Shown piece after piece: positions 5,003 through 22,629 of a stretch of DNA of 33,486 nt. The DNA comes from Burkholderiales bacterium. Its GTDB lineage: Bacteria > Pseudomonadota > Gammaproteobacteria > Burkholderiales > Burkholderiaceae_C. Both the position numbers and the translations under genes were made by a program. The notes under the pieces were generated by a model that did no database searches, was not told the origin of the DNA, and saw only the letters and a program-made list of their open reading frames with translations. The DNA is taken from the NCBI GenBank assembly GCA_017302505.1, contig JAFLDH010000016.1:1-33486 (forward strand). Direction: 5' to 3'. Numbering within the stretch: position 1 is the first letter of the stretch; each line of letters opens with the position of its first letter.

Positions 5003-5078
<76 letters not shown>

Positions 5079-5177: not shown

Positions 5178-7067
5178 GTGCTGACCAATCCAAGCCTGAC
5201 CCCTCCCGACCACACGGACGTTGCGAAAGAGCAACACGCCGCTGTCCTGCCGCCATCGTCCGACGACCCGGCACAACCCGACTCGAGTGTTGCGCCAGCC
5301 ACGGAAACAATCGCCGTCAACAGCGACCAGGTCTGGGACATTCACCCAGGCGCAGAGCACCTTTGGCGCTCACCGCACGGCATTTGGTACGTGCGGTTGG
5401 TTGTGCCGCAGTGGGTCCGCCAGGCTCATCCAAACTTGCCGTCGGAAATTCGCCGATCAACAAAAACTTCCGTAAAGCGGTTCGCCCTTGCCCGTTCGAA
5501 AGAAATTTGCCTAGACTTCTTTACCAGGTTTGGCAAACGGGGCATCCCTATGTTCAATGCTGGTAAAGAAGAAAACGGCTTCACGGTCGCCTACATCAAC
5601 GGCGCTCTGAAGATCGAGACGTCCGCAGGCGCCACGTATGAGACGCTGACCCTGCTGAAGCAATCCGTAAACGTGATTGTGCAGATGGTTGGCCGAGGAA
5701 TCGCGGCCAACGCGCCGAGTTTGCTGCCTTCGGATGATTCCGCACCTGCTGCGTCCAACTCATCCCGCGCCCACAAGCCCATGTCTGCAAGCAGCAGCCT
5801 GCCGGCGTCTCCGATTGAAGCGACATCGCCCGATCCTGCGTCTGATGTTGTTTGGCTGGAAGACGCCATCCAAGAGTGGCTGCATAAGAGCGGTGTGACA
5901 TTTTCAAAGCAGACCTGGGAAAGTTCGTACGCACCCTCTTTTCGAATCTTTCGCGAACTGGTCAGTACTGTACGCCGCCCGGTCAAAGGCGAGTCCGGCA
6001 CGGTCGACATGCTGGACATTCCCGTACGCGATTTGACGCGTCAAAGCATTGCATCGCTTCATGATCAGATGAAGTTGCTTCCCCCGCGGCAGGGAAAGCG
6101 GTCGGATGGGGTCGAAGCACCAGTACTCATCGCGGAAGCGAAGGCCAAAGGCCTTCCGTCCCCGAGCGCCCGCAACGTATTGAAGAAGCTGACGCACATT
6201 GCCCCTTGTATCTTTTGGCTCGAGCGCAAGGGCTATATCACCGCAGACGTGCGGATGGAGTTCGAACTCGCCAGGAAAGCAGCCGCAGGGGCAGCGTCGT
6301 CCAAGAAAATCAAAGGCTCGCAAGGCACTGGCTTCGTCGCTTTTTCGCTCAATGAGCTCCAACGAATCTTTGAGCAACCCGGCTTCAGGGTTAGGGCGAT
6401 GAAGCACGATTGGGCCTACTGGGCACCGCTCTTGTGCCTGTATCTGGGGTTCCGAATTTCAGAGGCCACGCAGACGCATACGGGCGACATCTGCTACGTG
6501 GATGGTGTGCCCTGCATTCGCACCGCGACCGTTGAAGAAGGGGAAGACGGCGCTGTCGTGGACATCACGTCGCAGACGGCGGAGGACTATCTGAGGCGGC
6601 TGAAGAACGGGGCGTCGCGGCGAACGGTTCCGATTCACCCGAAGCTTATTGAACTCGGCTTCCTTGACTTCGTCTCGCAGGTCAGCGGTGGCAGTTCTGA
6701 ATCAAGGCATCTCTTTCCGAAGCTTACGTGGCACGCGAAGAGTCTCTGGGGTCGCAAAGCTTCCGATCACATCGGCAAACTGGTCCGCTCGGCTGGAGCA
6801 TATGTGTTTCGCAAGAAGGTGCCGCATAGCCTGCGATCCAACTTTTCTCAGGCTGTGCAGAAGACCGGGCTGGCCGAAGCCTTGATCCAGCGTCTTCTCG
6901 GGCACTCGACGGGCGCGATGAAGGACGAGCACTACTCCGAAGCGGAGTATGGTGCTGCTGTACCTGCAGAGCTTGCGGTAAGCCATCTTGCAAAGGTCGA
7001 CTTCGGCATTTCAGTTCCCAGCTGGGCGGACATCGTCGCTTGGCGCAAGAAACCGGGGCGGCCATGA
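5178..7067 (+). CDS. Tyrosine site-specific integrase (DUF6538 type)
   Basis: This 629-residue recombinase is expected to insert and excise the island at the tRNA. The catalytic pentad is visible: Arg426 (LGFRISEA), His550-x-x-Arg553 (PHSLRSNF), His576 (LLGHS) and the nucleophile Tyr586 (EHYSE) ten residues later. An N-terminal DUF6538-like segment (about 60-115: LWRSPHGIWYVRLVVPQWV...RSTKTSVKRFALAR) and a core-binding domain (about 230-370) precede it. The first 55 residues are low-complexity and may be a mis-set start; the GTG at 5178 has no clear ribosome-binding site, but no better start is evident. The stop overlaps the next gene's ATG (ATGA), so the ParB-like protein is translationally coupled. 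Confidence 0.93.
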   Translation: MLTNPSLTPPDHTDVAKEQHAAVLPPSSDDPAQPDSSVAPATETIAVNSDQVWDIHPGAEHLWRSPHGIWYVRLVVPQWVRQAHPNLPSEIRRSTKTSVKRFALARSKEICLDFFTRFGKRGIPMFNAGKEENGFTVAYINGALKIETSAGATYETLTLLKQSVNVIVQMVGRGIAANAPSLLPSDDSAPAASNSSRAHKPMSASSSLPASPIEATSPDPASDVVWLEDAIQEWLHKSGVTFSKQTWESSYAPSFRIFRELVSTVRRPVKGESGTVDMLDIPVRDLTRQSIASLHDQMKLLPPRQGKRSDGVEAPVLIAEAKAKGLPSPSARNVLKKLTHIAPCIFWLERKGYITADVRMEFELARKAAAGAASSKKIKGSQGTGFVAFSLNELQRIFEQPGFRVRAMKHDWAYWAPLLCLYLGFRISEATQTHTGDICYVDGVPCIRTATVEEGEDGAVVDITSQTAEDYLRRLKNGASRRTVPIHPKLIELGFLDFVSQVSGGSSESRHLFPKLTWHAKSLWGRKASDHIGKLVRSAGAYVFRKKVPHSLRSNFSQAVQKTGLAEALIQRLLGHSTGAMKDEHYSEAEYGAAVPAELAVSHLAKVDFGISVPSWADIVAWRKKPGRP

Positions 7068-8083
7068 AGAAGACTACGACGCTCAATGGCGAATCGGCGC
7101 CGCCTGCCGGACCCCGTACTTTGGAGCGCAGCCCCAAGGTGCGGCGCAAGAGCTTGCCACCGACGGATAGCGCCCATCGCGGGGGTCGCAATGGCAACCC
7201 CAAAGCGTCGCCTTCACGGGGTCGCGCCACTGGGGCGGAACTTGCGCTCCTGCCGGCCCAGCTTCTGGAGTGTGAATGGTCACACTGCCACCCTGAGCGG
7301 TTGGCCGATGAGGCATTCCAGGCCCTGAAGCAATCTATCGCCAAGAGCCAGCGGAATCGTGTGCCGATTCTTGTCCGGCCCACCGGTGATACTGTCACCG
7401 TGTCGAATCGGGTCGTTGCCCAGTACCAAATCGTTTACGGAAGGCGACGTGCGCTTGCTTGCTCGCAACTCGGCAAGCCGGTTTACGCACTGGTCCGCGA
7501 AATGGACGACCACTCGGCAGCGGCATACCTGCACGCCGAGAACAGCTTCCGCGAAGGCCTTTCAGCCTTCGAACGCGGCAATTTGTACGATAGCTTGATC
7601 TCAGACGACGATCATCGGCATTCACCGGCTCAGCACCTGTTCCGCACCCAGTTGGAATTGGCAACGGCGCTGAACGTTGATGCCGGTGATGTCAGCCGCT
7701 GCCGCTTTCTTGCGCGCCTGCCGGCCGAGATTCTCGCGATCGTCGAGTCACCTCGCGATCTTGCCGTCCATGACGCCGATGCGCTGCGTGTCGCACTCAA
7801 GAGCCACCCCGCGGAAGTGCTGCGTCGCGCGGCAGCGATCGCGGAAGCCGACGGAAAGCTCAAGGCCAGGACTGCCGTGAAGCGACTGACCGACTTTCGC
7901 GCACATGCACCGAAGCACTCGGCCCTCGAGCGCCGGCTCGAGGTGGATGCCGTTGACTACGGACGGCTCAGGATCAGTGCATCCAGGCTGCTGTCGATTG
8001 AGTTTTCGCAACCGCTGACCGAAGCGCAACTGAAACGTGTGGAGTCCGCGCTGCAGAAGGCGTTGCGCGTTCCCCGGCGCTGA
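7064..8083 (+). CDS. ParB N-terminal-domain protein, coupled to the integrase
   Basis: This 339-residue protein has a basic, disordered leader (1-55) followed by a ParB/Srx-like domain (about 60-175). The domain contains NRVPILVRP, the box-II-like VYGRRRALAC (124-133) and ENSFREGLSAFERG (159-172). A helical part after 185 is likely the DNA-binding region. Chromosomal ParB proteins bind parS and, in many cases, CTP. On an integrated element this one might stabilise the excised circle or regulate the integrase; that is inference. No ParA partner is visible. The ATG at 7064 overlaps the integrase stop as ATGA and has GGGGCGG upstream. An in-frame TTG at 7040 is less likely. Confidence 0.85.
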   Translation: MKKTTTLNGESAPPAGPRTLERSPKVRRKSLPPTDSAHRGGRNGNPKASPSRGRATGAELALLPAQLLECEWSHCHPERLADEAFQALKQSIAKSQRNRVPILVRPTGDTVTVSNRVVAQYQIVYGRRRALACSQLGKPVYALVREMDDHSAAAYLHAENSFREGLSAFERGNLYDSLISDDDHRHSPAQHLFRTQLELATALNVDAGDVSRCRFLARLPAEILAIVESPRDLAVHDADALRVALKSHPAEVLRRAAAIAEADGKLKARTAVKRLTDFRAHAPKHSALERRLEVDAVDYGRLRISASRLLSIEFSQPLTEAQLKRVESALQKALRVPRR

Positions 8084-8207: not shown

Positions 8208-9545
8208 TCATGCGGCGGGGCGTGTTTTGGCTTCGAACGTAGGCTTTCTGAGCCGCCAGGTGCAGTCCAGCCCATGCTGTGCGAGTGCCGCGGCGATCTC
8301 GTGCTTCAGGTCGCCTTGTGGATCGGCCACATACACCGTCAAGTCGTCCAGGCCCAGCGCCGCGGCGACGTTGACAAGCGCATAGCCAAGTCCTGGCATC
8401 TGTCCGTCGGTGGCCAGGTATCCAGGGCCCATCAGCACAGCGTTGTCGCAATCGGCTCGGGTCCACCATACCTGTCCGCGCAGATTGGAGCTCAGCCATC
8501 CCGTGCCCAGAGCGGCACGCACGGCAGGCACAAACGCCAACACGCCGCCCGCACCACCACCATCGGCGGCGCGTGCCATCTTCCTGCTTAAGACCAATAC
8601 CGACGCGCTCGAAATAAGACGCGCATCAGGGTCGGCGAGTGGGTGTGATGCCAGCATGCTGCGGAGGTCTTCGTTGGCCGCGAGCAGCTCTTGCTGTAGG
8701 CGCCGCTCTTCGGCCTCAGATTGCCTGCGCCAGGCGGCTGAATGAGCAGATCCTTTGCGAAGCGCCTCGAGCGCTTCTTCGTGCTTCTCGTTTTCCGCTC
8801 GAACGCGTGCGTTGTATTGCACACGCGCATCCAGTTGACCCATCCTCAGCAACGCGTGCCGCGCCGGCCCAAGGTGGACGGTAGGCAAGGCCACCAGTCC
8901 ACGTGCACGGTGCGAACGATGATCCAGAGTGGCAGGCAGGCCCGCTTGACGCAGTGCGGCGTTGGCAAAGCTGCTCCACGATTGGCGCAGCTGCAGCAGC
9001 CATTTGCGCGTACCAATAAACGTGGATCTCGGCGCCCCGCTCCTTTCAGGCTTGGCGCCGTTTGCGCGACCGAACCATATCTCGGGCGGTCGCTTGCGCC
9101 CGTCGTTGATGCTGGTCGAAATCAGGAAATGAAGATGTGGATTGGGCTTGCGGCCTGTAGCGGCATCGTCACGCCGAATACCTTCGTGAATGGCATAGAG
9201 GGCCGGCATACCCTGCTCACCGTCGCGCCCCGATGACACTTGGGCGATGTGGGTCACAAAGTCGTCGACCAATTGATTCTGAAGATCATCGGGCAGATCC
9301 CGTGGGATAGCGGCCTCGATGCAAAACATTAGCCGGGCGTTCGCCCTAACGTTGGTCTGGCGGTCGAGTGCACGCCAATACTCGCGCGGATCCGATTTGG
9401 CCCACTCAGGCATGTACTTCCAGCCGATTCTGCGCACTCGATCACCCCGGGCGGAGTAGCGACCCTCGCGCAGTATGTAGTCCGCCTTTTCGGATGATGT
9501 GGATTTGCTATTTCTACGCATGTAGCTGATGTGAAAATGAAACAT
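8208..9545 (-). CDS. MOBQ relaxase, RSF1010 MobA-like
   Basis: This 445-residue relaxase should nick at oriT and pilot single-stranded DNA through another element's conjugation machine. From memory, the N-terminal about 240 residues align convincingly with RSF1010 MobA: KADYILREGRYS (probable nucleophile Tyr23), REYWRALDRQTNVRANARL, the metal-binding NPHLHFLIS (His137, His139, with His120 upstream), SINDGRKRPP, FGRANGAKPE, and DHRS...TVHLGPA. A coiled-coil segment follows (about 250-300). The last about 135 residues are not the RSF1010 primase and match nothing I recognise. The start at 9545 fits the family's MFHFHIS opening. It converges on the ParB-like gene and is divergent from the TraD-like gene. 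Confidence 0.92.
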   Translation of the reverse strand: MFHFHISYMRRNSKSTSSEKADYILREGRYSARGDRVRRIGWKYMPEWAKSDPREYWRALDRQTNVRANARLMFCIEAAIPRDLPDDLQNQLVDDFVTHIAQVSSGRDGEQGMPALYAIHEGIRRDDAATGRKPNPHLHFLISTSINDGRKRPPEIWFGRANGAKPERSGAPRSTFIGTRKWLLQLRQSWSSFANAALRQAGLPATLDHRSHRARGLVALPTVHLGPARHALLRMGQLDARVQYNARVRAENEKHEEALEALRKGSAHSAAWRRQSEAEERRLQQELLAANEDLRSMLASHPLADPDARLISSASVLVLSRKMARAADGGGAGGVLAFVPAVRAALGTGWLSSNLRGQVWWTRADCDNAVLMGPGYLATDGQMPGLGYALVNVAAALGLDDLTVYVADPQGDLKHEIAAALAQHGLDCTWRLRKPTFEAKTRPAA

Positions 9546-10557: not shown

Positions 10558-10934
10558 TCGATTGGCGTCGACTGAAGTCCGACAACCCGAGAATCTCTTC
10601 CGTACTCAGTGGAACGGGGGTCGATGCGATTCGCTACACACGCCGCGGTTGGCGAGCCGGGCTTGCGAACTTCCACCCGAATCATTCTTCGCCAGTGACG
10701 TTGCCGCGGCCTGTCGCGTCCCGCTGAGAATTCAGCATTCCCTTTCGGACTTCACCAGCGCACTGACCATCGGGAAAGTTGCCAATTCAGAGGACCAATT
10801 CCCAACGGAACGGATCCCCCAGGCTTGTGCACCGCTCGTTGTGAAACCCGTTCGTTCTTTGCCGCCATCCCACTTCGCTTGATAGGATCCAGTTATGGGC
10901 GTGAAGCCTGCAGAACTCGGCGAAGGGGAAGGTG

Positions 10935-13337
10935 ATGCGAGACGGCGTGATCACCGAGGCGGACACCTGCCGCGAGTTCGTCACCCCGAAGCTCGTGGAG
11001 GCTGGATGGGGCGTGGCGCCCCACGCCATCGGCGAACAGCGCAGCTTCACCAACGGCCGCATCATCGTGGCCGGCGGCAAGGTACGGCGCGGCAAGCAGA
11101 AACGTGCCGATTACCTGCTGTACTACCGCCGCGACTATCCCCTGGCCGTCGTCGAAGCCAAGGAGATCGGCCTACCCGCCGAGACCGGCGTGCAGCAGGC
11201 CCGAGAGTACGCGGAGATCCTGGGGCTCAAGTTCGCCTACGCGACCAACGGCCACCGCATCATCGAGATCGACTACACCGCCGGCACCGAGCGCGAGGTC
11301 GACCGCTACGCCACGCCCGACGAGCTGTTTGCCCGCCTGACCAGCACGGCGCGTCTTACCCAGGAAGCCGCATCACACCTGTTGGAGCCGTTCAACCTGT
11401 TGTCGGGCAAAGTGCCCCGCTACTACCAGCAGATCGCCATTCAGCGCGTGATCGAGGCGATCCTGCGGGGCGACAAGCGCATCCTCGCCACCCTGGCCAC
11501 AGGCACCGGCAAGACCTGCGTCGCGTTCCAGATCTGCTGGAAGCTGTGGAGCAGCCGCTGGAACCGCACCGCCGAATACCGCCGACCGAAGATCCTGTTC
11601 CTGGCCGACCGCAACATCCTGGTCGACGACCCGATGGCCAAGATGTTCGCACCCTTCGGCGACGCCCGCCATAAGATCGCCGGCGGCGACGTCAGCCAGA
11701 GCCGGGACATGTACTTCGGCATCTATCAGGCGCTCTCCACCGCCAGCACGGACGTCTTCCGGCAGTACCGCCCTGACTTCTTTGACTTGATCATCATCGA
11801 CGAGTGCCACCGCGGCTCCAGCCGCGACGAGAGTGCCTGGCGCGCCGTCCTGGACTACTTCGCCCCTGCGGTGCAGTTCGGCATGACGGCGACGCCGCTG
11901 CGCGAAGAGTCGCGCGACAGCTACGAGTACTTCGGCAACCCCGTCTACACCTACAGCCTGCGCCAGGGCATCGAGGACGGCTTCCTCGCGCCCTATCGCG
12001 TGCACCGGGTGATCACCACCGTCGACGCGGCTGGCTGGCGGCCGAGCAAGGACGAACTGGACCGCTACGGCCGCGAAGTGCCCGACGACGAGTACCAGAC
12101 CAAGGACTTCGAGCGTGTCGTGGCCCTGCGCGCCCGTACGCGGGCAATGGCCCGGCACCTGACCGACTTCCTGAAAGGCACCGACCGCTTCGCCAAGACG
12201 CTGGTGTTCTGCGTCGACCAGGAACACGCCGCGGAAATGCGGCAGGAGCTGGTCAACCTCAACAGCGATCTGGTCAAGCAGTACCCGGACTATGTCTGCC
12301 GCGTCACCGCCGACGAAGGCGCCATCGGCCTGACCCATCTGGCGCATTTCCAAGACGTCGACAAGCCGGCGCCCGTCATCCTCACCACCTCCCAGCTGCT
12401 GACCACCGGCGTCGATGCCGAGATGGTCAAGAACGTGGTGCTGGCTCGCGTCGTCGGATCGCGCGCCGAGTTCAAGCAGATCGTGGGGCGCGGTACGCGG
12501 CTGAAGGTCGACTATGGCAAGGAGTACTTCAACATCATCGACTTCACCGGCACGGCCACCCGCCACTTTGCCGATCCGGACTTCGACGGTGAGCCCGCGC
12601 TGATCGAGGAGGTAACGGTCGACGAGTCGGGCGAACAGGTCAGCGTCACGGAGACGGCTCCCGAAACGCCGCCCGAAGCCCAGGCTGTGGGGTACGAGGT
12701 GCCGAAAGAGCAGATCGGTCCGGGTGCAGGCGGCGTTCTCATCAACGAGCCGCCGCCCGAGCCGCGCAAGTTCTACATCGACGTTGGCGAAGTCGAAGTC
12801 ATCGGCCACCTGGTCTACGACCTGGACACCGACGGCAAGAAGCTGCAGGTGGTGAAGTACACCGAGTACTCCGGCCGCGCCGTGCGCACCCTGTACCCCA
12901 CCCGCGAGGCCCTGCAATCGGCCTGGGCCGACCCCGATACGCGCAGCGAGGTGCTGCGCGAGCTCACCGAGCGCGGCATCAGCTTCGAGGAGCTGGCCGC
13001 CAGCAGCGACCAGCCCGATGCCGACCCCTTCGACCTGCTGTGCCATTTGGCCTGGAACGCACCGCTGCTCACCCGCCGCCAGCGCGCCGAAGCGGCCCGT
13101 CGCCGGGCGCAGGACCTGTTCGGCCAGTACGGTGACACCGCGCGCGAGATCCTGGCGCTGCTGCTCGAACGCTACGTCGAGCGCGGCATCCTGCAGTTCA
13201 GCACGCTGTCCGAGCTGATGAAGGTCCAGCCCTTCGACCGCTACGGCAGCCCCGCCGAGATCGCGACCCGCCATTTCGGCGGCGTGCGCGGCATGAAGGA
13301 CGCCGTCTCCCGCCTGCAGACCGCGCTCTACCAATAA
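10935..13337 (+). CDS. hsdR: Type I restriction enzyme, R (motor/nuclease) subunit
   Basis: This protein of about 800 residues is the DNA translocase and endonuclease of the type I complex. The N-terminal PD-(D/E)xK nuclease shows Asp59 (ADYLLYY), Glu74-x-Lys76 (VVEAKE) and a following Q-x-x-x-Y (QQAREY). Superfamily 2 helicase motifs follow: Walker A TGTGKT (189-194), DECH (289-292), TATP (318-321) and QIVGRGTRL. The C-terminal part should contact HsdM/HsdS. Its length fits the shorter, EcoEI-like R subunits. GTG (10932) and ATG (10935) are adjacent start choices after GAAGGGGAAG; I take ATG. It is the first gene of a four-gene operon. Confidence 0.96.
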   Translation: MRDGVITEADTCREFVTPKLVEAGWGVAPHAIGEQRSFTNGRIIVAGGKVRRGKQKRADYLLYYRRDYPLAVVEAKEIGLPAETGVQQAREYAEILGLKFAYATNGHRIIEIDYTAGTEREVDRYATPDELFARLTSTARLTQEAASHLLEPFNLLSGKVPRYYQQIAIQRVIEAILRGDKRILATLATGTGKTCVAFQICWKLWSSRWNRTAEYRRPKILFLADRNILVDDPMAKMFAPFGDARHKIAGGDVSQSRDMYFGIYQALSTASTDVFRQYRPDFFDLIIIDECHRGSSRDESAWRAVLDYFAPAVQFGMTATPLREESRDSYEYFGNPVYTYSLRQGIEDGFLAPYRVHRVITTVDAAGWRPSKDELDRYGREVPDDEYQTKDFERVVALRARTRAMARHLTDFLKGTDRFAKTLVFCVDQEHAAEMRQELVNLNSDLVKQYPDYVCRVTADEGAIGLTHLAHFQDVDKPAPVILTTSQLLTTGVDAEMVKNVVLARVVGSRAEFKQIVGRGTRLKVDYGKEYFNIIDFTGTATRHFADPDFDGEPALIEEVTVDESGEQVSVTETAPETPPEAQAVGYEVPKEQIGPGAGGVLINEPPPEPRKFYIDVGEVEVIGHLVYDLDTDGKKLQVVKYTEYSGRAVRTLYPTREALQSAWADPDTRSEVLRELTERGISFEELAASSDQPDADPFDLLCHLAWNAPLLTRRQRAEAARRRAQDLFGQYGDTAREILALLLERYVERGILQFSTLSELMKVQPFDRYGSPAEIATRHFGGVRGMKDAVSRLQTALYQ

Positions 13338-13364: not shown

Positions 13365-15227
13365 ATGCCCCGTTCCAAACGTCCAGCGGCTGCCGCCACC
13401 ACCGCCGACGCCGCCGTTGCAAAGAAACCCCGCGCCGCGCGCAAGGCCAAGGCGCCGCTCACCACCCGCGAGAACCTGTCGGCGCTGATCGGCACCGCCC
13501 GCCAGATCCTGCGCAAGGACAAGGGGCTCAATGGCGACGTGGATCGCCTGCCGCTGCTCACCTGGGTGATGTTCCTCAAGTTCCTAGACGACCTCGAAGC
13601 CGTGCACGAGCAGGAGGCCGAACTCGACGGCAAGCGCTACCAGCCCATCATCGAGGCGCCATACCGCTGGCGAGACTGGGCCGCGCGCGAGGACGGCCTG
13701 ACCGGCGACGAGCTGCTGGCCTTCATCAACCAGGATGAGACCCACCGCGCCGATGGCTCGCGCGGCGCGGGCTTGTTCGCCTACCTGCGAGCCCTGGCCG
13801 GCAGCGGCGAGAAGGGCAGCCAGCGCGAAGTCATCGCCAACGTCTTCAAGGGCGTGCAGAACCGCATGGTCAGCGGCTACCTGCAGCGCGACATCGTCAA
13901 CAAGATCAACGGCATCCACTTCAGCAGCAGCGAGGAGATCCACACCCTCTCGCACCTGTATGAATCGATGCTGCGCGAGATGCGCGACGCCGCGGGCGAC
14001 TCAGGCGAGTTCTACACCCCGCGCCCCGTGGTGCGCTTCATGGTGCAGGTGACCGACCCGCGCCTGGGCGAGACCGTGCTCGACCCCGCCTGCGGCACCG
14101 GTGGATTCCTGGTGGAGGCCTACGACCACCTGGCCCCGCAGGTGACCACGCCCGAACAACGCCGCACCCTGCAGCGAGACACCCTCTACGGCCAGGAAGC
14201 CAAGCCGCTGCCCTACATGCTGGCGCAGATGAACCTGCTGCTGCACGGGCTGGAAGCTCCGCAGATCGCCTACGGCAACACGCTGGACCGCCGCGTCAAC
14301 GAGATCGGCCACAGCGAACGCGTGGACGTGATCCTGACCAACCCGCCCTTCGGCGGCGAGGAGGAGGTCGGTATCAAGGCCAACTTCCCGCCCAACATGC
14401 AGACGGCGGAAACGGCGCTGCTGTTCCTGCAGTACATCATGCGCAAGCTGCGCGTGGCGGGTGCACCTGTACCCGGCGGCAAGCCCGCTGCGCGTGGCGG
14501 CCGTGCGGCCGTGGTCGTGCCCAACGGCACCTTGTTCGGCGACGGCATCAGCGCCGCCATCAAGGAGGAGCTGCTCAAGGCGTTCCGCCTGCACACCATC
14601 GTTCGCCTGCCGCAAGGCGTGTTCGCGCCCTACACCGACATCCCGGCCAACCTGCTGTTCTTCGAGCGCGGCGGCCCGACCGACACCATCTGGTACTACG
14701 AGCTTCCCTTGCCCGAAGGGCGCAAGAAATACAGCAAGACTGCGCCGCTGCAGTTCGAGGAGTTCGCAACTGCCCGGGCCTGGTGGAACGCCCGCGAGGA
14801 GGGGCCGCAGGCCTGGAAAGTGGACTTCGCCGCCAGGCGCGCTGCTGCTGTGGAGGCCGCCACGCCGCACTGGCAGCGTGCCGAAGCCGAGCGCAACGCG
14901 GCGCTCTCACTGGGCAAGCCGATTCGCGAACTGGAACAGGTCGCACAGGCCGCGGCAAACAGCGACAAGGCCGCGCTGCAGGACAAGCTGCGGGTGCTCA
15001 AGGCCGATCAGCAGGCCCACGAGCACGCAGCCAAGGTGGCCCAGGCCGAGGGCGATGCCCTGTACTGGCCCATCTACAACCTGGACCTCAAGAACCCGCA
15101 CGCCCGCGCGGGCCTGGAGCACGCCGACCCGAAGTACCTGATCGCGTCGATGCGCAGCCACGAGGCCGAGGTGATGCGGCTGCTGGGTGAGATCGAGGCG
15201 CTGGTCAGCGCGGTGGACGGCGAATGA
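13365..15227 (+). CDS. hsdM: Type I restriction-modification methyltransferase subunit
   Basis: This 620-residue N6-adenine methyltransferase has the SAM-binding motif I DPACGTGGF (240-248) and the catalytic motif IV NPPFGG (326-331). An HsdM N-terminal helical domain (about 35-190) comes first, and a long Ala/Glu-rich helical C-terminus (about 500-620) is likely for HsdS contact. An alanine/lysine-rich 30-residue leader is probably disordered. It lies 27 bases after hsdR. Its last four bases overlap the hsdS start (ATGA), so HsdM and HsdS synthesis is coupled. Confidence 0.97.
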   Translation: MPRSKRPAAAATTADAAVAKKPRAARKAKAPLTTRENLSALIGTARQILRKDKGLNGDVDRLPLLTWVMFLKFLDDLEAVHEQEAELDGKRYQPIIEAPYRWRDWAAREDGLTGDELLAFINQDETHRADGSRGAGLFAYLRALAGSGEKGSQREVIANVFKGVQNRMVSGYLQRDIVNKINGIHFSSSEEIHTLSHLYESMLREMRDAAGDSGEFYTPRPVVRFMVQVTDPRLGETVLDPACGTGGFLVEAYDHLAPQVTTPEQRRTLQRDTLYGQEAKPLPYMLAQMNLLLHGLEAPQIAYGNTLDRRVNEIGHSERVDVILTNPPFGGEEEVGIKANFPPNMQTAETALLFLQYIMRKLRVAGAPVPGGKPAARGGRAAVVVPNGTLFGDGISAAIKEELLKAFRLHTIVRLPQGVFAPYTDIPANLLFFERGGPTDTIWYYELPLPEGRKKYSKTAPLQFEEFATARAWWNAREEGPQAWKVDFAARRAAAVEAATPHWQRAEAERNAALSLGKPIRELEQVAQAAANSDKAALQDKLRVLKADQQAHEHAAKVAQAEGDALYWPIYNLDLKNPHARAGLEHADPKYLIASMRSHEAEVMRLLGEIEALVSAVDGE

Positions 15228-16375
15228 AGGGGTGGTCCAAAGTTGCCCTGGGCGAGTTGCTGCGGCGCTCCGATGAGGCCACGGTACTTGACCCCGCAGC
15301 CGAATACCACGAGGTGACGATCAAGCTGTGGGGCAGAGGCGTCGTCAGCCGGGGCAAGGTCCGCGGCGGCGACGTCGTTTCGGTTCGCCGTGTCGTTCGC
15401 GCCAATCAGCTGATCCTGTCGAAGATCGACGCACGCAACGGTGCGATCGGTCTGGTACCGCCCGAACTCGACGGCGCCATCGTCAGCAATGACTTCCCGT
15501 CGTTCGAGTTTCGCGACCCAGAGCGATGCGACGCCGCCTTCATGGGCTGGCTGGTCCGCTCGGCGCCATTCGTCGAACTGTGCAAGGCCGCCAGCGAAGG
15601 CACCACCAACCGCGTGCGCATCAAGGAAGACCGGTTTCTCGATCAGCAGATCGGGCTTCCTCCACTGTCAGAACAACAAGCCATCGTCGCCCGCCTCGAC
15701 GCGCTGGCCGAGAAGACGCGGGAAGTCGAAGCGCATCTGGATGCCGTCGAGCGTGATTCGGAGCGGCTCGTGAGGTCCTACATCTTCCATCCCGCAGGTG
15801 ATCAGGCCATCAAGCGGCCTCTGTCCGAACTGGTACAGCATCGGCCGACGGATATCTCCGTCGACAGAACGGCGCAGTACCGCTTTGCCGGCGTTTACTC
15901 GTTCGGGCGCGGCGTGTTTCCAAGCGTCGTCAAGGCTGGTAGCGAGTTCGCCTACGAGCGGCTCTCGACCGTTCGTTCTGGCGACTTCACATACCCCAAA
16001 CTGATGGCCTGGGAAGGCGCGCTTGGCGTCGTTCCGCCGGCCTGTGACGGGATGGTTGTATCGCCCGAGTTCCCGGTTTTCAGCATCAACACCGACGAGG
16101 TCTTGCCCGAGATTCTGGACATCTATTTCCGCACGCCAGAGGTCTGGCCAGCGCTCGCGGAGCTGAGCGGCGGCACGAACCTTCGCCGCCGTCGCCTGCA
16201 GCCGTCCGCCTTCCTGCGCTACGAAATGCCTGTGCCGCCAATGGCAACGCAGCTGATGGTTCGCGAGGCGTTTCGACGGACCCAGGCCCTGAAGTCGAAG
16301 CACGCTGCCATCCGCCAGGCCAACGCCGCGCTACTTCCCGCCACGCTGGAGCGGCTATTCGCCGGGAGCGTGTAG
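15224..16375 (+). CDS. hsdS: Type I restriction-modification specificity subunit
   Basis: This 383-residue DNA-recognition subunit has two target-recognition halves, about 1-145 and 195-340. The first ends with IGLPPLSEQQAIVARLDAL and the second with MPVPPMATQLMVREAFRR, each leading into a helical spacer as expected for HsdS. It sets the recognition sequence for both methylation and restriction; that sequence cannot be read from the protein. It is slightly short for the family but appears complete. The start overlaps the hsdM stop by four bases, and its own TAG stop shares a base with the GTG of the SIR2 gene. Confidence 0.95.
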   Translation: MKGWSKVALGELLRRSDEATVLDPAAEYHEVTIKLWGRGVVSRGKVRGGDVVSVRRVVRANQLILSKIDARNGAIGLVPPELDGAIVSNDFPSFEFRDPERCDAAFMGWLVRSAPFVELCKAASEGTTNRVRIKEDRFLDQQIGLPPLSEQQAIVARLDALAEKTREVEAHLDAVERDSERLVRSYIFHPAGDQAIKRPLSELVQHRPTDISVDRTAQYRFAGVYSFGRGVFPSVVKAGSEFAYERLSTVRSGDFTYPKLMAWEGALGVVPPACDGMVVSPEFPVFSINTDEVLPEILDIYFRTPEVWPALAELSGGTNLRRRRLQPSAFLRYEMPVPPMATQLMVREAFRRTQALKSKHAAIRQANAALLPATLERLFAGSV

Positions 16376-19300
16376 TGCAGTTCATCACCAACGGTCCGGA
16401 CATCCCCGATGCGCTCCTGCAGGCGCACGAGGACGGCCGCGTGGTGTTCTTCTGCGGTGCCGGCATCTCCTACCCCGCCGGTCTGCCGGGCTTCAAGGGT
16501 TTGGTGGACGAGATCTACCGGCTAAATGGCACTGCACCGAGCGACATCGAACGCGCGGCCCTGGACCGGGGACAGTACGACGCCACGCTCGACCTGCTGG
16601 AGCGGCGTCTGCCGGGCCAGCGCTTGGCCGTGCGTCGCGCGTTGGCGGAGGCTCTGCAGCCCAAGTTGCGCCGCAAGGGAGCCACCGATACACATGCCGC
16701 GCTGCTTCGGCTGGCGCGTGATCGTGAAAGGCGCGACCGCAAGAGCGCGCTGAGGCTGGTCACAACCAACTTCGACCGTCTCTTTCACACCGCGGCCAAG
16801 CGCACCGGGCAGGCGTTCCAGGCCTTTGCAGCGCCGATGTTGCCGATCCCTAAGAACAGCCGCTGGGACGGGCTGGCCTATCTGCACGGCTTGCTGCCCG
16901 AGAAGGCGGACGACACCGCCTTGAACCGGCTCGTGGTCACCAGCGGCGACTTCGGGCTGGCCTACCTGACGGAGCGCTGGGCGGCCCGGTTCGTGAGCGA
17001 GCTGTTCCGCAACTACGTGGTGTGTTTCGTCGGCTACAGCATCAACGACCCGGTGCTGCGCTACATGATGGACGCGTTGGCGGCGGACCGCATGCTGGGC
17101 GAAGTCACACCGCAGGCCTGGACGCTGGGCGACAGCGAGCCGGGGCAGGAGGCGCCTAAGACCGTCGAGTGGGAAGCCAAGGGCGTCGCGCCGATCCTGT
17201 ACCCCGTACCGGCCGGCACGCACGACCATTCAGCGTTGCACCAGACCTTGCAGGCCTGGGCCGCGACCTATCGCGACGGTGTCACGGGCAAGGAGCGCAT
17301 CGTGGTCGCGCATGCCCTGGCACGGCCGTCGGCCAGCACACGGCAGGATGACTTCGTGGGCCGGATGCTGTGGGCATTGTCGGACCCGTCTGGCCTGCCG
17401 GCCAAGCGGTTTGCAGAGTTCAATCCGGTGCCGTCTCTGGAGTGGCTGCTCGACGCCTTTGCCACGGACCGTTATGGGCACACCGACCTAATCCGATTCG
17501 GTGTGCCGCCGCGTGACAACGCCGACCCCAAGCTGCGGTTCAGCCTGATCCATCGCCCGGCACCGTACCCGCTCGCGCCGCCAATGCAGTTGGTTGCCGC
17601 ATATGTCTCCCATTCGGGGTGGGACGACGTGATGGCCGAACTTGCGCGCTGGCTGGTACGGCATCTGAATGACCCGCGGCTCGTCGTCTGGATTGCCGAG
17701 CGCGGCGGTCAGCTGCCTGAGCAATGGATCCGGCAGATCGAGCGCGAGCTGGACCGTCTGGCCCAGCTAGAACGTGACGGCAAGACGTCCGAACTTGACG
17801 ATATTCGCGCCCAGGCCCCCGAGGCCATCCCAAGGCCAATGATGCGGACCCTGTGGCGGCTGCTGATCTGCGGACGTGTGAAGGCACCGCGGAGCGAACC
17901 CGACCTCTATCGATGGAAGATCCAGCTGAAGCGCGAAGGCTTGACAGCCACTATGCGACTGGGGTTGCGAGAGCTGCTGTCGCCCAAGGTGCGCTTGAGC
18001 AAGCCGTTCAGCTGGGACCAGGAGCCCGAAAGCGCCGACGAGGCCACAAGACTGCGGCATCTGGTGGAATGGGAATTGGTGCTGGCCGCCGATCATGTGC
18101 ACGAGGCCTTGCGCGACCTGGCCGACGCGCAGTGGCAAGCGGCGCTTCCAGCATTGCTGGATGACATGCAGCAGTTGCTCTTAGATGCGCTGGGACTCCT
18201 GCACGAACTGGCTGAGGCCAACGAGCGCGAAGACCGCTCCTATTGGGGTCTGCCCTCGATCAGTCCACACTGGCAGAACAGGGGATTCCAGGACTGGGTC
18301 TCGTTGATCGAGCTGGTGCGCGATGCGTGGCTGGCGGTCCGCAGTGCCGATGGTGGTCGCGCGGCGCGTGTTGCGGCGGCGTGGTTTGACCTTCCGCATC
18401 CAACGTTTAAGCGCTTTGCATTTTTCGCTGCGAGCCAGGAGGGATCCATCGCTCCAGAGAAATGGGTGGAGTGGTTACTGGCAGATGGCAGTTGGTGGTT
18501 GTGGGCTGACGATACGAGGCGAGAGGTGTGCAGGCTGCTGGTACTGCAGGGTCGTCGATTGGCATCACCTTCGAAGGAGCGGCTGGAATCGGCGATCCTG
18601 GCGGGACTTCCGCATGAAATGCGCGGACACGATGCCGACCCTGAACAATGGCGAAGACTTGTCGATCGGGCGATGTGGCTGCGCCTTGCCAAGCTGCATG
18701 CTTCCGGCCTTGCTCTCGAATCAACCAGCGCAACGCGTTTGGCCGAGCTGTCGGGTGCATACCAGCAGTGGCAACTGGCCACCAATGAGAGCGACGAGTT
18801 CCCGCACTGGATGAGTGGCACTGGCGACCCGGACTTCGAGGAGAGCCGGGATCTAGACATCGCCCCCCGCAAGCGCAGCGCACTATTCCAATGGCTCAGT
18901 AAGGCGCAGCCCGCGAGGAGCTTCTTCTACGAGGACACGTGGCGCAGTGCCTGCCGGAAGCACATGCTGAACAGCCTCTACGCGCTTTGCGACCTCGCTC
19001 ATACAGGTGTGTGGCCTAAGGAGCGCTGGCGCGAAGCGCTGCAGGTATGGAGCGAAGACGCCATGGTGCTGCGCTCCTGGCGCTTCGCCGCTCCACTGGT
19101 TCAAACCATGCCCAATTCAGTGGTGCAGGAGCTCGTGCATGCCGTCACTCAGTGGCTGCAGGCTGTATCCAGGTCCATTGATCGATACGAGGCCATCCTG
19201 CTGAGCATGTGCCAGCGTATCTTGGCATTGCCGTTGGATGAGGACTCGGGGATCACAAGCGGCGACGGCGAGCCGATCCATCAGCCAGTCACTGAGGCAA

Positions 19301-20220
19301 TCAACCATCCGATTGGCCACGTCACGCAGGCACTGGTCAACCTCTGGTTCAAGCGAAAGCCCAACGACGGCGACCTGCTTCCCGCGGACATCGGACCCTT
19401 GTTCACCGAGCTGTGCGATGTACGGGTCCAGCGGTTCCGGCATGGCCGAGTTCTGCTGGCTTCCCGATTGATTGCCCTCATTCGTGTTGACCGCAAGTGG
19501 ACCGAGCACTACCTGCTGCCACGATTCGATTGGATGTCCGACCCGCTCGAAGCCAAAGCCGCGTGGGAGGGCTTCCTCTGGTCGCCTCGCCTTTACCAAC
19601 CGCTGCTTCTTGCGTTCAAGCGCGAGTTCCTCGAAACGGCGCGCCACTATGGCGACTTGGGTGAGCATGCCAAGCAGTTCGCCGCGTTCCTGACGTACGC
19701 AGCGTTGGGGCCGGTCGACGGCTACACGGCGGAGGAGTGGCGCGCTGCGATCGCGGCGCTGCCGCGCGAGGGCTTGCAGGAGTCAGCGCGGGCGCTGGTG
19801 CAGGCGCTCGACGCGGCCGCAGAGCAGCGTGAGGAATACTGGAAAAACCGCATCCAGCCGTTCTGGCAGGACGTCTGGCCCAAGTCGCGCGATCTCGCCA
19901 CTCCTGGCATCTCCGAATCTCTCGCGCGGCTCTGCATCGCGGCCGGCTCCGAGTTCCCTGCTGCCCTGACCACGGTCCTGGATTGGTTGCGACCCATCGA
20001 GCACCCGTACTACGTCATCCATCGCCTGCACGAGTCTGGGCTGTGTGGCCGTTTCCCGATACACGCGTTGCGACTGTTGGCGGCGATCGTCACGGATCAG
20101 TCTTGGGGGGCGCTCGAACTGCGGCAATGTTTGAATCTCATTCTGCGGGCGGACGCGAGCCTTGGCCAAGACCCAAGCTACCAGCGTCTGCACGAGTACG
20201 CCAGGCGACAGGGAGAATGA
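16375..20220 (+). CDS. Large SIR2-domain protein, probable NADase defence effector
   Basis: This 1281-residue protein has an N-terminal sirtuin-like domain (about 20-270). It shows the NAD-binding GAGIS (28-32) and GLPGF (36-40), TTNFD (130-134), a catalytic-type His171 in YLHGLL, and the closing segment FVGYSINDPVLRYMMDAL (218-235). The remaining about 1000 residues are Trp/Leu-rich and helical, probably an infection-sensing scaffold; I see no further enzyme motif. Long SIR2 proteins of this layout (Dsr-type) abort phage infection by degrading NAD+. The GTG start lies within TAGTG, overlapping the hsdS stop by one base, so it is translated as part of the R-M operon. Codon GC falls relative to hsdRMS, hinting at a separate origin. 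Confidence 0.88.
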   Translation: MQFITNGPDIPDALLQAHEDGRVVFFCGAGISYPAGLPGFKGLVDEIYRLNGTAPSDIERAALDRGQYDATLDLLERRLPGQRLAVRRALAEALQPKLRRKGATDTHAALLRLARDRERRDRKSALRLVTTNFDRLFHTAAKRTGQAFQAFAAPMLPIPKNSRWDGLAYLHGLLPEKADDTALNRLVVTSGDFGLAYLTERWAARFVSELFRNYVVCFVGYSINDPVLRYMMDALAADRMLGEVTPQAWTLGDSEPGQEAPKTVEWEAKGVAPILYPVPAGTHDHSALHQTLQAWAATYRDGVTGKERIVVAHALARPSASTRQDDFVGRMLWALSDPSGLPAKRFAEFNPVPSLEWLLDAFATDRYGHTDLIRFGVPPRDNADPKLRFSLIHRPAPYPLAPPMQLVAAYVSHSGWDDVMAELARWLVRHLNDPRLVVWIAERGGQLPEQWIRQIERELDRLAQLERDGKTSELDDIRAQAPEAIPRPMMRTLWRLLICGRVKAPRSEPDLYRWKIQLKREGLTATMRLGLRELLSPKVRLSKPFSWDQEPESADEATRLRHLVEWELVLAADHVHEALRDLADAQWQAALPALLDDMQQLLLDALGLLHELAEANEREDRSYWGLPSISPHWQNRGFQDWVSLIELVRDAWLAVRSADGGRAARVAAAWFDLPHPTFKRFAFFAASQEGSIAPEKWVEWLLADGSWWLWADDTRREVCRLLVLQGRRLASPSKERLESAILAGLPHEMRGHDADPEQWRRLVDRAMWLRLAKLHASGLALESTSATRLAELSGAYQQWQLATNESDEFPHWMSGTGDPDFEESRDLDIAPRKRSALFQWLSKAQPARSFFYEDTWRSACRKHMLNSLYALCDLAHTGVWPKERWREALQVWSEDAMVLRSWRFAAPLVQTMPNSVVQELVHAVTQWLQAVSRSIDRYEAILLSMCQRILALPLDEDSGITSGDGEPIHQPVTEAINHPIGHVTQALVNLWFKRKPNDGDLLPADIGPLFTELCDVRVQRFRHGRVLLASRLIALIRVDRKWTEHYLLPRFDWMSDPLEAKAAWEGFLWSPRLYQPLLLAFKREFLETARHYGDLGEHAKQFAAFLTYAALGPVDGYTAEEWRAAIAALPREGLQESARALVQALDAAAEQREEYWKNRIQPFWQDVWPKSRDLATPGISESLARLCIAAGSEFPAALTTVLDWLRPIEHPYYVIHRLHESGLCGRFPIHALRLLAAIVTDQSWGALELRQCLNLILRADASLGQDPSYQRLHEYARRQGE

Positions 20221-20222
20221 GT

Positions 20223-20330
20223 ATGCCGCGAGGTGAGCCGACTCGGTTACGCGAACTGAAACGAATCATCTCAGTACTGCACGCGATTCTGCGAGCGTCG
20301 ACAAACGGTCAACGATCGAGCTCCCCTTGA
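20223..20330 (+). CDS. Possible 35-residue peptide after sir2
   Basis: An ATG two bases after the sir2 stop opens a 35-codon frame, beginning MPRGEPTRLRELKRIISVLH. The RLRELKRIISVLH segment could be the first helix of a truncated regulator. No clear ribosome-binding site is separate from the upstream coding end. It may equally be chance read-through into the structured region that follows. Confidence 0.25.
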   Translation: MPRGEPTRLRELKRIISVLHAILRASTNGQRSSSP

Positions 20331-20528: not shown

Positions 20529-20855
20529 TCAACGAGCCTTCGCTCGCGCACTGGAAACCTTTGAACCCATCTTCGGCGCCTTGCCAGTCGGTAGGCCTGC
20601 GCTGGCAGGTTCCGCTGTGATCGCATTGATCTGCTCGTCGGGCACGTACTCAGCAAGGTCACCTAAGCTGCACCCGAAGTAACGGCAAAGCAGGTCCATA
20701 TTCGCGGACGTGACGTTGGTGCCGCGGATATTGATGATGCGCGACAGCGTGCTACGGTGAATGCCAGTGGCGTCGGCAACCTCGCCGATTTCAACGCGAC
20801 GACCTTCCCGAAAGCCTTTGTCGACCATGAGCTCGGCGAGCCTGAATCTGATCAT
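20529..20855 (-). CDS. XRE-family transcriptional regulator
   Basis: This 108-residue Cro/CI-like protein has a helix-turn-helix at about residues 20-45 (IGEVADATGIHRSTLSRIIN) followed by TSANMDLLCRYFGCSLGDLAEYV, the characteristic end of the HTH_3/HTH_26 fold. A short polar tail of about 35 residues follows. The ATG at 20855 has GGGAGCG upstream; a longer in-frame start (20948) is not family-like. It is divergent from the LAGLIDADG-AAA-Zn-finger operon with about 170 bases of repeat-rich promoter between them, so it most likely controls that operon and itself. Confidence 0.88.
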   Translation of the reverse strand: MIRFRLAELMVDKGFREGRRVEIGEVADATGIHRSTLSRIINIRGTNVTSANMDLLCRYFGCSLGDLAEYVPDEQINAITAEPASAGLPTGKAPKMGSKVSSARAKAR

Positions 20856-20909
20856 TTGAGCGCTCCCGCCGCCCGAACCGGGCGCCTGATGGCGAATTAT
20901 CCGCGAATC

Positions 20910-20999
20910 GCATGTTGCACACACGCGACATGTAGCCTTCAGAGGCATCGTTCAGCTTGCATGTCGACTCATGCGCTGTATGATTCATTCATGCGACAC
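20910..20999. promoter_or_regulatory. Divergent promoter/operator region with repeated CATGTYGC motif
   Basis: An imperfect dyad CATGTTGC...GCGACATG spans 20911-20932. Related words recur as GCATGTCGA (20959-20967) and TCATGCGACAC (20989-20999). A plausible rightward promoter overlaps them: TTGCAT (20957-20962), a 16-base spacer, and TATGAT (20979-20984). This placement suits repression by the adjacent XRE protein. Confidence 0.5.
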
Positions 21000-21023
21000 A
21001 CAACCCATGGAAAGGAGCATCGC

Positions 21024-21515
21024 ATGTCGAAGTGGAGATTCGCCCCGTCTGACAACGGAATCCTCGTTACCCCGCGCAGCCCCAAGCCCAGTTCCACGGA
21101 ACGGGCGTATGCAGCGGGCCTGACAGACGGCGAGGGTTGCGTGTCAATCATCAAGCAATCGGTGCCGGGGCGCAAAAACCCGACGTATCGGCTGCGGTTG
21201 GACGTGGTTCAGAACGATTTCCAAACGCTAGTGAACTTCGTCCATTGCGTGGGCGTCGCCACCAAAGTGCGGCCTGTTAAACGCGATGCCAGAGCCAATC
21301 GTCAAGTTTGGCGCATCGGCTACGACGGACCGCAGGCCTACGAAGTACTGACTCGCCTGCATCGATACCTTGTGCGGAAAAAGCCCGAATCCAGGGTGGC
21401 AATGGACTTCGTTGAAAAGGGACGCATCGGATTGCACCCGGGTTGCGCAGGCACTCCTGCCAGGTACTGGAAGGTGCGCGAAGCGTGCTATCGAAAACTG
21501 AAGAAGCTCAAGTAG
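21024..21515 (+). CDS. Single-motif LAGLIDADG-like protein
   Basis: This 163-residue protein carries one LAGLIDADG-type signature, AAGLTDGEGCVSI (30-42). A basic alpha/beta region with YRLRLDVVQND, VWRIGYDG and a lysine-rich end (CYRKLKKLK) follows. Single-motif members act as homodimeric homing endonucleases, and some serve as maturases or regulators. No intron or intein surrounds it, so it is free-standing. The ATG at 21024 has AAAGGAG upstream. It lies 10 bases before the AAA ATPase gene, in the same operon, which is unusual for a selfish endonuclease and suggests a working role in a three-gene system. Confidence 0.8.
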   Translation: MSKWRFAPSDNGILVTPRSPKPSSTERAYAAGLTDGEGCVSIIKQSVPGRKNPTYRLRLDVVQNDFQTLVNFVHCVGVATKVRPVKRDARANRQVWRIGYDGPQAYEVLTRLHRYLVRKKPESRVAMDFVEKGRIGLHPGCAGTPARYWKVREACYRKLKKLK

Positions 21516-21525
21516 AGGAGACCTC

Positions 21526-22629
21526 ATGCCAAGGCAGCACCAACATCACAGATTTCCTGTCGCCAGTAAAGCGTTGCCTCGCAACAGGCGGCTTCGTGCC
21601 GACCCAGACTTGCTCAGACAGATTGCGTGCATTCGAAAGATGGCGGAGGATTTCGCAGGCTCGGCTTCTGCTGCACCGCCGCGAAAACAGCTTTTCGCCG
21701 ACAGCGACATGAAGGCCCAACTAGAGATTGCGTCTCGGTTGAGCGGCGATGCGCAGCGCATGGTGCAGCGGCATCTCAACCGGGCCAAGACGCTTGGTCC
21801 GTGGCGCGATGTGGTTCGGGCCCCCTACCCTTCGTGTCTGGATGAACTGCACCGTAGCTTTCCGCATTGCAGCGAGGTGATCTCGCTGGTGCAAGGCTAT
21901 CTTGCACTGTGCCAACGAAGCCGTGACTGCGTGCTGCGCATGCCGCCCTTGCTGCTGGTGGGCGACCCGGGCATTGGAAAGACCGCGTTCATCAGGCAAC
22001 TGGCGCAGTTGCTTGGCTCGCCGATTGTTGATGTGTGCGTGGCCGCGTTGAGCGCGGGTTTCTCGTTGGCAGGGCTCGACTCTAGCTATGACTCCGCAAA
22101 GCCGGGGCAGGTGTGGTATGCGCTTGACACCGAGTGCATGTCGCCGATCGTCTTGCTCGACGAACTCGACAAGCCGGCTCGCGATAGCCAGTCCATGCTG
22201 GGCAGCCTGTACCCCCTGCTAGAGAGACACACCGCATCACGGTTTGTCGACCAGGCGGTGCCTTTGCCAATCAATGCGTCCTACGTGAACTGGTTCGCGA
22301 CCTGCAATGACGTCACGGCAGTTGAGCCAGCGCTTCGTTCTCGATTTGAGATTGCCAGCATCTCTGCCCCGACTCGAGCGCAAATGCCGGCAGTCTTGGC
22401 GAGCGTCCACCGCGAGATGCGGTCCGAATACGAATGGATGAATGGATTCGATATCGAACTCGACGACAACGTGATGGCGCTGCTCACCGAAATGACGCCG
22501 CGTGAATTGAAACGCAGTTTGGCGAAAGCCTATGCCCTCGCGGCACGGGCAGGACGCCGGAGGCTCGCTGTCGCGGACCTTGTTCAGTCATTCAACGGCT
22601 TCACTGCCAAGTTCATGGGATTCCTCTGA
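21526..22629 (+). CDS. AAA+ ATPase, Lon-like module without protease
   Basis: This 367-residue ATPase has an N-terminal helical region (1-135) and then a AAA+ core: Walker A GDPGIGKT (146-153), Walker B IVLLDELD (208-215), a sensor-1 region ATCND (258-262), arginine-finger candidates in LRSRFE (R271, R273) and a sensor-2-like TPRELKRSL (324-332). The path LLLVGDPGIGKT...AKPGQVWYAL...VLLDELDK resembles the Lon AAA module, but there is no serine-lysine protease domain, so it probably remodels a partner. The ATG at 21526 has AGAGGAG six bases upstream. Its TGA overlaps the next gene's ATG by one base (TGATG), tying the two in expression. Confidence 0.85.
   Translation: MPRQHQHHRFPVASKALPRNRRLRADPDLLRQIACIRKMAEDFAGSASAAPPRKQLFADSDMKAQLEIASRLSGDAQRMVQRHLNRAKTLGPWRDVVRAPYPSCLDELHRSFPHCSEVISLVQGYLALCQRSRDCVLRMPPLLLVGDPGIGKTAFIRQLAQLLGSPIVDVCVAALSAGFSLAGLDSSYDSAKPGQVWYALDTECMSPIVLLDELDKPARDSQSMLGSLYPLLERHTASRFVDQAVPLPINASYVNWFATCNDVTAVEPALRSRFEIASISAPTRAQMPAVLASVHREMRSEYEWMNGFDIELDDNVMALLTEMTPRELKRSLAKAYALAARAGRRRLAVADLVQSFNGFTAKFMGFL

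Follow-up and report, generated by a model that had tools for sequence, protein, structure and literature searches.

A dsr1 sirtuin gene as last cistron of a type I restriction-modification operon in a Burkholderiales bacterium

The operon and its fourth gene

The stretch of DNA considered here (the window) is the whole 33,486-nucleotide stretch of contig JAFLDH010000016.1 of a Burkholderiales bacterium, forward strand. According to its list of open reading frames (ORFs), four plus-strand genes follow one another in the order hsdR, hsdM, hsdS and a gene for a SIR2 protein, which combines a type I restriction-modification (R-M) system with dsr1, the gene for defence-associated sirtuin 1. Comparison with relatives suggests that this linkage is real yet not fixed, the pair having joined and parted several times. 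The genes and their junction are as follows.

10932..13337, plus strand: hsdR, 801 amino acids (aa), EcoAI/FtnUII-family type I restriction subunit (NF046051, PADLOC, Pfam)
13365..15227, plus strand: hsdM, 620 aa, type I N6-adenine methyltransferase (Pfam, PADLOC)
15224..16375, plus strand: hsdS, 383 aa, specificity subunit (PF01420, PADLOC)
16375..20220, plus strand: dsr1, 1281 aa, GTG start, defence-associated sirtuin 1 (NF041818, PADLOC)
16298..16377, plus strand: hsdS/dsr1 junction with the last 25 hsdS codons (KHAAIRQ...LERLFAGSV and stop), GGGAG and TAGTG (read directly; tail-profile tests)

HsdR scores 1013.6 bits against NF046051, the model of the EcoAI/FtnUII family (cut-off 550), and is also matched by ResIII (126 bits) and EcoEI_R_C (107.2 bits) of Pfam and by REase_I of PADLOC (717.2 bits). 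HsdM matches N6_Mtase of Pfam (203.5 bits) and MTase_I of PADLOC (800.2 bits), while HsdS matches Methylase_S (PF01420; 25.7 bits, cut-off 22) and Specificity_I of PADLOC (483.6 bits). With HsdR over the family cut-off and HsdM and HsdS encoded in the same operon, the set is, by its profile matches, a type I R-M system of the EcoAI/FtnUII family.

The SIR2 protein scores 2017.7 bits against NF041818, the Dsr1 equivalog (cut-off 1400), over residues 1-1277, and 2220.6 bits against the Dsr1 model of PADLOC. Pfam sees SIR2_2 alone in its 1281 residues (76.2 bits), and the SIR2 NADase KomC is its sole match below E 0.01 in a sequence search of the PDB. As judged from these matches, the fourth gene is a full-length Dsr1, a member of a known single-gene anti-phage sirtuin family. 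The layout consists of a SIR2 domain with N132 and H171, followed by a C-terminal region of about 1000 aa; N132, D134 and H171 are conserved in 85 of 85 aligned Dsr1 rows, window included. In the related DSR2, N133/H171 are required, according to passages of PMC11087589. The GTG start is supported by M1, which is invariant across nine aligned relatives that begin at the same position. A second SIR2_2 match occurs in the window's own genome (L002; G000:C300:3638-4009), in an open frame of 572 aa.

The hsdM and hsdS genes overlap by four bases (ATGA, 15224-15227), and hsdS and dsr1 by a single base (TAGTG, 16373-16377). A first-pass annotation, made from the window alone, had described both overlaps, the gene order with a 1281-residue SIR2 protein on one strand, and a SIR2 defence protein within an hsd operon; ORF coordinates confirm the arrangement, and the protein now has a family name through a score over the NF041818 cut-off. 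Within the final hsdS codons, ahead of TAGTG, lies a Shine-Dalgarno (SD)-like stretch, GGGAG, with a duplex energy of -7.3 kcal. At the other end of dsr1, a small ORF over the stop codon (window 20217-20330) was considered as a further operon gene and rejected as unconserved. Similarity among the window and loci L044, L046 and L109 stops a few bases past the dsr1 stop, so that dsr1 forms the end of the module shared by these four.

Recurrence of the hsdS-dsr1 junction

A survey with one genome per species yielded 456 Dsr1 relatives, the best 80 of which were retained together with up to 10 kb of flanking DNA; upstream DNA amounts to at least 5 kb in 58 of these loci and at least 1.2 kb in 70. 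Upstream regions were searched with the window's HsdR, HsdM and HsdS and with profiles built from 51-58 members each. An hsdRM(X)S set stands directly upstream of dsr1 in eight of the 80 (L044, with an hsdR truncated where the contig ends, and L046, L057, L080, L089, L105, L109 and L115). Ten more carry relics of hsdS (eight strong, two weak), and 62 are without trace, including L104, which has no upstream DNA to test. The HsdR/M/S profiles find hsd pieces in L052, L075 and L106 and nothing in 68 of the 80 loci; L120 is the only one with an HsdR-like gene downstream of dsr1. L128, not one of the 80, shows an HsdM-like stretch (27%) on the opposite strand upstream.

In all nine intact junctions found, window included, hsdS ends with its stop at -5 to -2 relative to the start of dsr1, and the SD duplex reaches -5 kcal or lower in eight of the nine, against 31% of shuffles. 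Because the same junction recurs in eight of the 80 other loci, it is not attributable to chance. The coupling proposed in the first-pass annotation thus holds at the junctions themselves, but it is not "fixed" as described there, and the tabulation of homologues suggested there places most of those examined away from hsd genes (8/80 intact, 10/80 relics, 62/80 no trace). Many standalone dsr1 genes (L033-L043, L047, L050, L051, L058 and L059) have a similar leader, TTGGATAGGAAATAGAAGAAATG-like, right before the start codon, and this leader is unlike the hsdS-tail class.

Dsr1 scores over the cut-off in 10 of 398 genomes of an even sample of the phylum; among these ten, the intact pair occurs in the window alone, L130 shows a weak relic and G101 has no upstream DNA. 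No hsdS was found directly upstream of dsr1 in the seven plasmid records viewed of 11 with dsr1 coverage of at least 80%, and none of the window's hsd genes lies near 11 viral-contig Dsr1 loci in the available flanks. Phage records gave no match, and E. coli genomes gave none to the window operon. A different dsr1, 46% identical to the window's, is present in 14 of 5426 E. coli genomes, namely on plasmid pMTY18781-2 (L154) and on 13 chromosomes; the plasmid has an hsdS-hsdM-helicase set downstream of dsr1 on the other strand. A literature search found no published account of dsr1 docked behind hsdS, which is no proof of absence in print, and the arrangement is not described in passages of PMC11087589, PMC10121019, PMC11514479, PMC6299218 and PMC12707154.

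Remnants of hsdS beside open dsr1 genes

In translated upstream DNA of loci without an intact hsdS, the end of HsdS (...LERVFxGxx and stop) can be recognized at the dsr1 start. Relics were scored with a leave-one-out hsdS-tail profile, its anchor allowing 0-5 trailing residues, against 9345 background positions; the anchored form was adopted since an ungapped profile had overlooked L080, with an hsdS tail shorter by one residue. The test covered the dsr1 starts of 95 of 96 loci (L104 out), 20 of the 95 having no stop codon near the start. Eight loci without intact hsdS exceed the background maximum of 12.6 bits: L106 (64.2 bits), L067 (44.9), L111 (36.0), L060 (31.4), L102 (26.0), L052 (20.6), L108 (17.2) and L075 (14.9). 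Three weaker relics, L114 (10.1 bits), L117 (9.6) and L130 (9.4), are each matched by 7-10 of the 9345 background positions. Ten of these eleven loci belong to the 80, with L130 outside. L061 (9.0 bits, reached by 16/9345 positions, stop at -15) and the weak candidates L076, L119, L122 and L128 were not counted.

The matched part of the tail spans 6-22 of the 22 profile positions, about the size of a translation start region. Some loci retain more: in L106 an HsdS frame of 154 codons remains, and in L075 a fragment of HsdR precedes the tail. By eye, L114 keeps an N-terminal HsdS stretch (YHEVTI), and in L111 the tail is fused to an N-terminus that looks like HsdS; immediately before this lies a PDDEXK nuclease gene that is 77% identical to the one in an Azotobacter operon. 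Beside these remnants, ten of the eleven loci have an open dsr1 of 1255-1279 codons; that of L111 is open as far as the contig reaches. Open dsr1 genes with hsdS tails therefore mark places where hsd genes went while dsr1 remained; as read from these sequences, loss of hsd genes has occurred repeatedly, sparing dsr1 and the 3'-terminal part of hsdS. Two of the relic genomes, those of L060 (G414) and L106 (G459; a metagenome-assembled genome that may be incomplete), have no N6_Mtase match. Among the dsr1 genomes searched, 10 of 79 lack such a match (L074 left out; some assemblies incomplete), the search being used as presence or absence, with places not mapped onto loci.

These remnants bear on a guard arrangement of the kind described for the anticodon nuclease PrrC, in which the linked HsdRMS would silence Dsr1 or be watched by it, and a phage Ocr-, Stp- or Ard-like block of R-M would fire Dsr1. 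The tight junction in 9/9 intact cases and its recurrence behind the same R-M lineage speak for such a guard, as does the precedent itself, PrrC being silenced by a linked type I R-M system and activated by a phage anti-restriction factor in passages of PMC2610378 and PMC12707154. Yet PrrC orthologues are described as invariably R-M linked in passages of PMC2610378, whereas Dsr1 is intact-linked in 8/80 loci, and DSR1 is called a single-gene system in passages of PMC10973363. HsdRMS may moreover not be needed to keep Dsr1 silent, because dsr1 remains open beside a destroyed hsdS and N6_Mtase matches are missing from the genomes of L060 and L106. A guard of this type is accordingly considered decidedly improbable, and in its obligatory form it is disfavoured on the sequence record. 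The trigger by restriction fragments, HsdS or an antirestriction protein that the first-pass annotation had envisaged finds no support for the same reasons, namely the open dsr1 genes beside destroyed hsdS and the 10/79 genomes without N6_Mtase match.

Evolutionary history of the linkage

A midpoint-rooted FastTree tree of Dsr1 comprises 85 of 89 rows, with 24 of 82 inner branches weak; L054, L083, L097 and L098 were left out, because their dsr1, translated from its start codon, ends short of 900 aa. Both kinds of label, intact and relic, are scattered over the tree, and well-supported branches force at least 14 changes between labels. In a three-state model (linked, relic, none; L104 treated as unknown), the version with docking beats loss-only by 9.6 log-likelihood (lnL) units. 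In reruns with the root linked and L104 removed, gain plus loss stays ahead by 9.1 lnL with strong relics only, by 9.1 without L080, and by 9.9 without L080 and long branches.

L080 appears to be the clearest separate docking. Its R-M genes group with those of the dsr1-free L177 (100/100), far from the tight R-M clade, and its Dsr1 groups with that of the window, L046, L109, L057 and L089 against L105 and L115 (100/100). Conflict between R-M and Dsr1 trees throughout was also considered and rejected, since the two do not conflict in the tight clade; the claim was narrowed to L080 and the state models.

An alternative history would start from one ancestral hsdRMS-dsr1 operon, broken up by many losses and never re-formed by docking. 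The relics show loss directly, both trees agree on (window, L046), L109, the L105+L115 grouping is not rejected by the R-M data, and the reconstructed root state is 0.45 linked, 0.31 relic and 0.24 none, all of which fit this history. It is nevertheless distinctly unlikely, given a loss-only model that is worse by 9.1-9.9 lnL and an L080 whose R-M genes and Dsr1 keep such different company. Rather, more than one docking of dsr1 behind hsdS has probably taken place in this R-M lineage.

Restriction-modification relatives and genomic setting

Searching with HsdM, not Dsr1, also yielded relatives of the operon with HsdM identities from about 85% upward. On an Azotobacter plasmid the order is R-M-PDDEXK-S, with an 85% identical HsdM and no dsr1. 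In G153 (L175; G153:C424) the R-M genes are present and dsr1 is cut to about 40 codons followed by other sequence; the frame into which this stub runs is unrelated to dsr1 and presumably RhuM-like. G1061 is L089 again, with dsr1 intact, and the G1044 contig ends ahead of hsdS. No dsr1 was seen near R-M genes with HsdM of 76% identity or less in six genomes viewed (G324, G139, G229, G119, G187 and G941), nor in the stretches viewed of four plasmids and five viral contigs; a sixth viral contig, L187, breaks off at hsdS and is uninformative on dsr1. The five plasmid records viewed of eight with HsdM of at least 55% identity likewise have none (H42, H46 and H48 left out). Docking is therefore concentrated in one R-M lineage, plus L080, whose HsdM is 70% identical.

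In part of this lineage, hsdM and hsdS are separated by a gene for a PDDEXK nuclease, which is annotated in L147 (7746-8879). By tblastn, genes 64-78% identical precede hsdS or its relic in L057, L089, L109, L111, L115 and L175, and none was found in the window, L044, L046, L080, L105, L176 and L177. The HsdS proteins of linked loci diverge widely (34-86% identity), and thus no single DNA target is tied to Dsr1.

The operon looks, from its surroundings, to sit on an integrated mobile island that carries an integrase and a relaxase, with the following features; no attachment repeat for the island was found within the window.

5003..5078, plus strand: tRNA-Ala (CGC), candidate integration target of the operon-bearing island (ARAGORN)
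5178..7067, plus strand: integrase (DUF6538 and Phage_integrase), following the tRNA-Ala gene
7040-8083: ParB-like, weak match
8208..9545, minus strand: MobA/MobL relaxase, 445 aa (PF03389, 70.3 bits)

On the 3' side of dsr1 (window 20529-22629) there are an HNH-endonuclease-like ORF (phrog_5046) and an AAA ATPase gene with Lon-like similarity, and a gene for an HTH regulator lies in the same region on the opposite strand (20529-20948).

Such a setting invites the explanation that dsr1 merely hitch-hikes: dsr1 and hsdRMS would both travel in defence islands, and recombination at the conserved 3' end of hsdS would favour this junction, with co-expression of no selected value. The modules do shuffle, each partner is commonly seen without the other among the loci viewed, and the island bears genes of mobility. 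Random neighbours, however, would not repeatedly put the dsr1 start within 5 nucleotides of the hsdS stop. No other upstream type I set was found by the HsdR/M/S profiles in the flanks of the remaining loci, although distant R-M families could escape them; the association therefore consists of one exact arrangement and not of general proximity. Hitch-hiking as the whole explanation is hence held to be unlikely.

Proposed function of the linked pair

Taken together, the comparisons favour dsr1 as an autonomous anti-phage NADase, modular and repeatedly docked at the end of a type I R-M operon, and this reading appears reasonably probable. Neither partner appears to need the other, because there are R-M cassettes without dsr1, open dsr1 genes beside destroyed hsdS, and dsr1 genomes free of N6_Mtase matches; this suggests that each can persist without its companion. 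The relics speak against any obligatory guard; that the exact junction keeps recurring suggests, on the other hand, that co-translation has some value.

In the proposed mechanism, ribosomes finishing hsdS would restart at the GTG or ATG of dsr1 by termination-reinitiation (at TAGTG in the window), using the SD stretch within the hsdS tail, so that both defence layers would be made together. HsdRMS would act as the first layer by cutting unmodified incoming DNA. The C-terminal region of Dsr1 (about 1000 residues) would detect a phage component, not the state of the R-M enzyme, after which the SIR2 domain would lower NAD+ and stop phages that escape restriction from replicating. According to a review that cites Garb 2022 (passages of PMC10952713), DSR1 inhibits phage replication without cell death, which weakens the first-pass idea that loss of the first layer kills the cell.

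Several points weigh against this interpretation. The 80 loci are the best-scoring of 456 and were picked partly for likeness to the window, so that linkage frequencies are biased. An SD duplex of -5 kcal or lower occurs in 5 of 11 relics and in 25 of 61 other loci, which is not clearly better, and selection for the kept hsdS tail is for this reason a guess. The 14 label changes on the Dsr1 tree compare with a mean of 18.2 in shuffles, a number as low being reached in 1 of 500, and the linkage label is therefore partly inherited. Because the R-M and Dsr1 trees show no open conflict inside the tight R-M clade, co-inheritance with a faster-evolving Dsr1 may account for part of the pattern. The case for re-docking draws on L080, on the many unlinked rows interspersed among linked ones and on a simple three-state model, and the proposed trigger of Dsr1 is inferred by analogy from DSR2.

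A bolder proposal, which should be regarded as very doubtful, is that the hsdS 3' end of the EcoAI-like lineage serves as a standing dock for a second-layer effector, with dsr1 genes re-docking by way of the shared tail, and that the NADase, after docking, is tuned by the state of R-M (its inhibition, or cut phage DNA) while both halves also work alone. If true, the result would be a conditional R-M-to-NADase relay. The loci offer a natural series (intact pair; R-M dead with open dsr1; R-M intact with reduced dsr1) in which cooperation of co-coded defences can be set against shared travel, and the assumption "same operon, same mechanism" can be checked from relics.

Comparison with known systems

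The window set resembles type I R-M systems of the EcoAI/FtnUII family in its R-M-S order and in an HsdR over the curated cut-off, and it differs from them by the dsr1 gene docked behind hsdS. Likewise, the fourth protein is like Dsr1 (NF041818; PADLOC) in its full length, SIR2 N-terminus and long C-terminal region, whereas Dsr1 is described as a single-gene system (passages of PMC10973363) and the window copy is the last cistron of an R-M operon. DSR2 is also a SIR2 protein with a large C-terminal part; it is an NADase activated by phage tail-tube protein, as stated in passages of PMC11087589, but the C-terminal regions of DSR1 and DSR2 have little sequence in common, according to passages of PMC10973363.

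PrrC of the EcoprrI locus resembles the window's Dsr1 as a translation- or growth-stopping effector encoded in a type I R-M locus (passages of PMC2610378 and PMC12707154). They differ in that PrrC is an anticodon nuclease, invariably R-M linked and held silent by type I R-M in the account given in passages of PMC2610378, whereas Dsr1 has a SIR2 domain, is mostly unlinked (8/80 intact, 62/80 no trace) and persists after R-M loss. The first-pass interpretation, which had R-M events trigger the NADase, is partly supported overall: its genes and junctions stand, and its dependence on R-M is not supported. RloC occurs at R-M loci in 8/72 cases, once beside an hsdR relic (passages of PMC2610378), and so shares with Dsr1 an only occasional presence there; it is a different enzyme, and no recurrent exact hsdS junction is described for it in those passages. 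For the linkage pattern of Dsr1, RloC is the closest precedent and a better one than PrrC.

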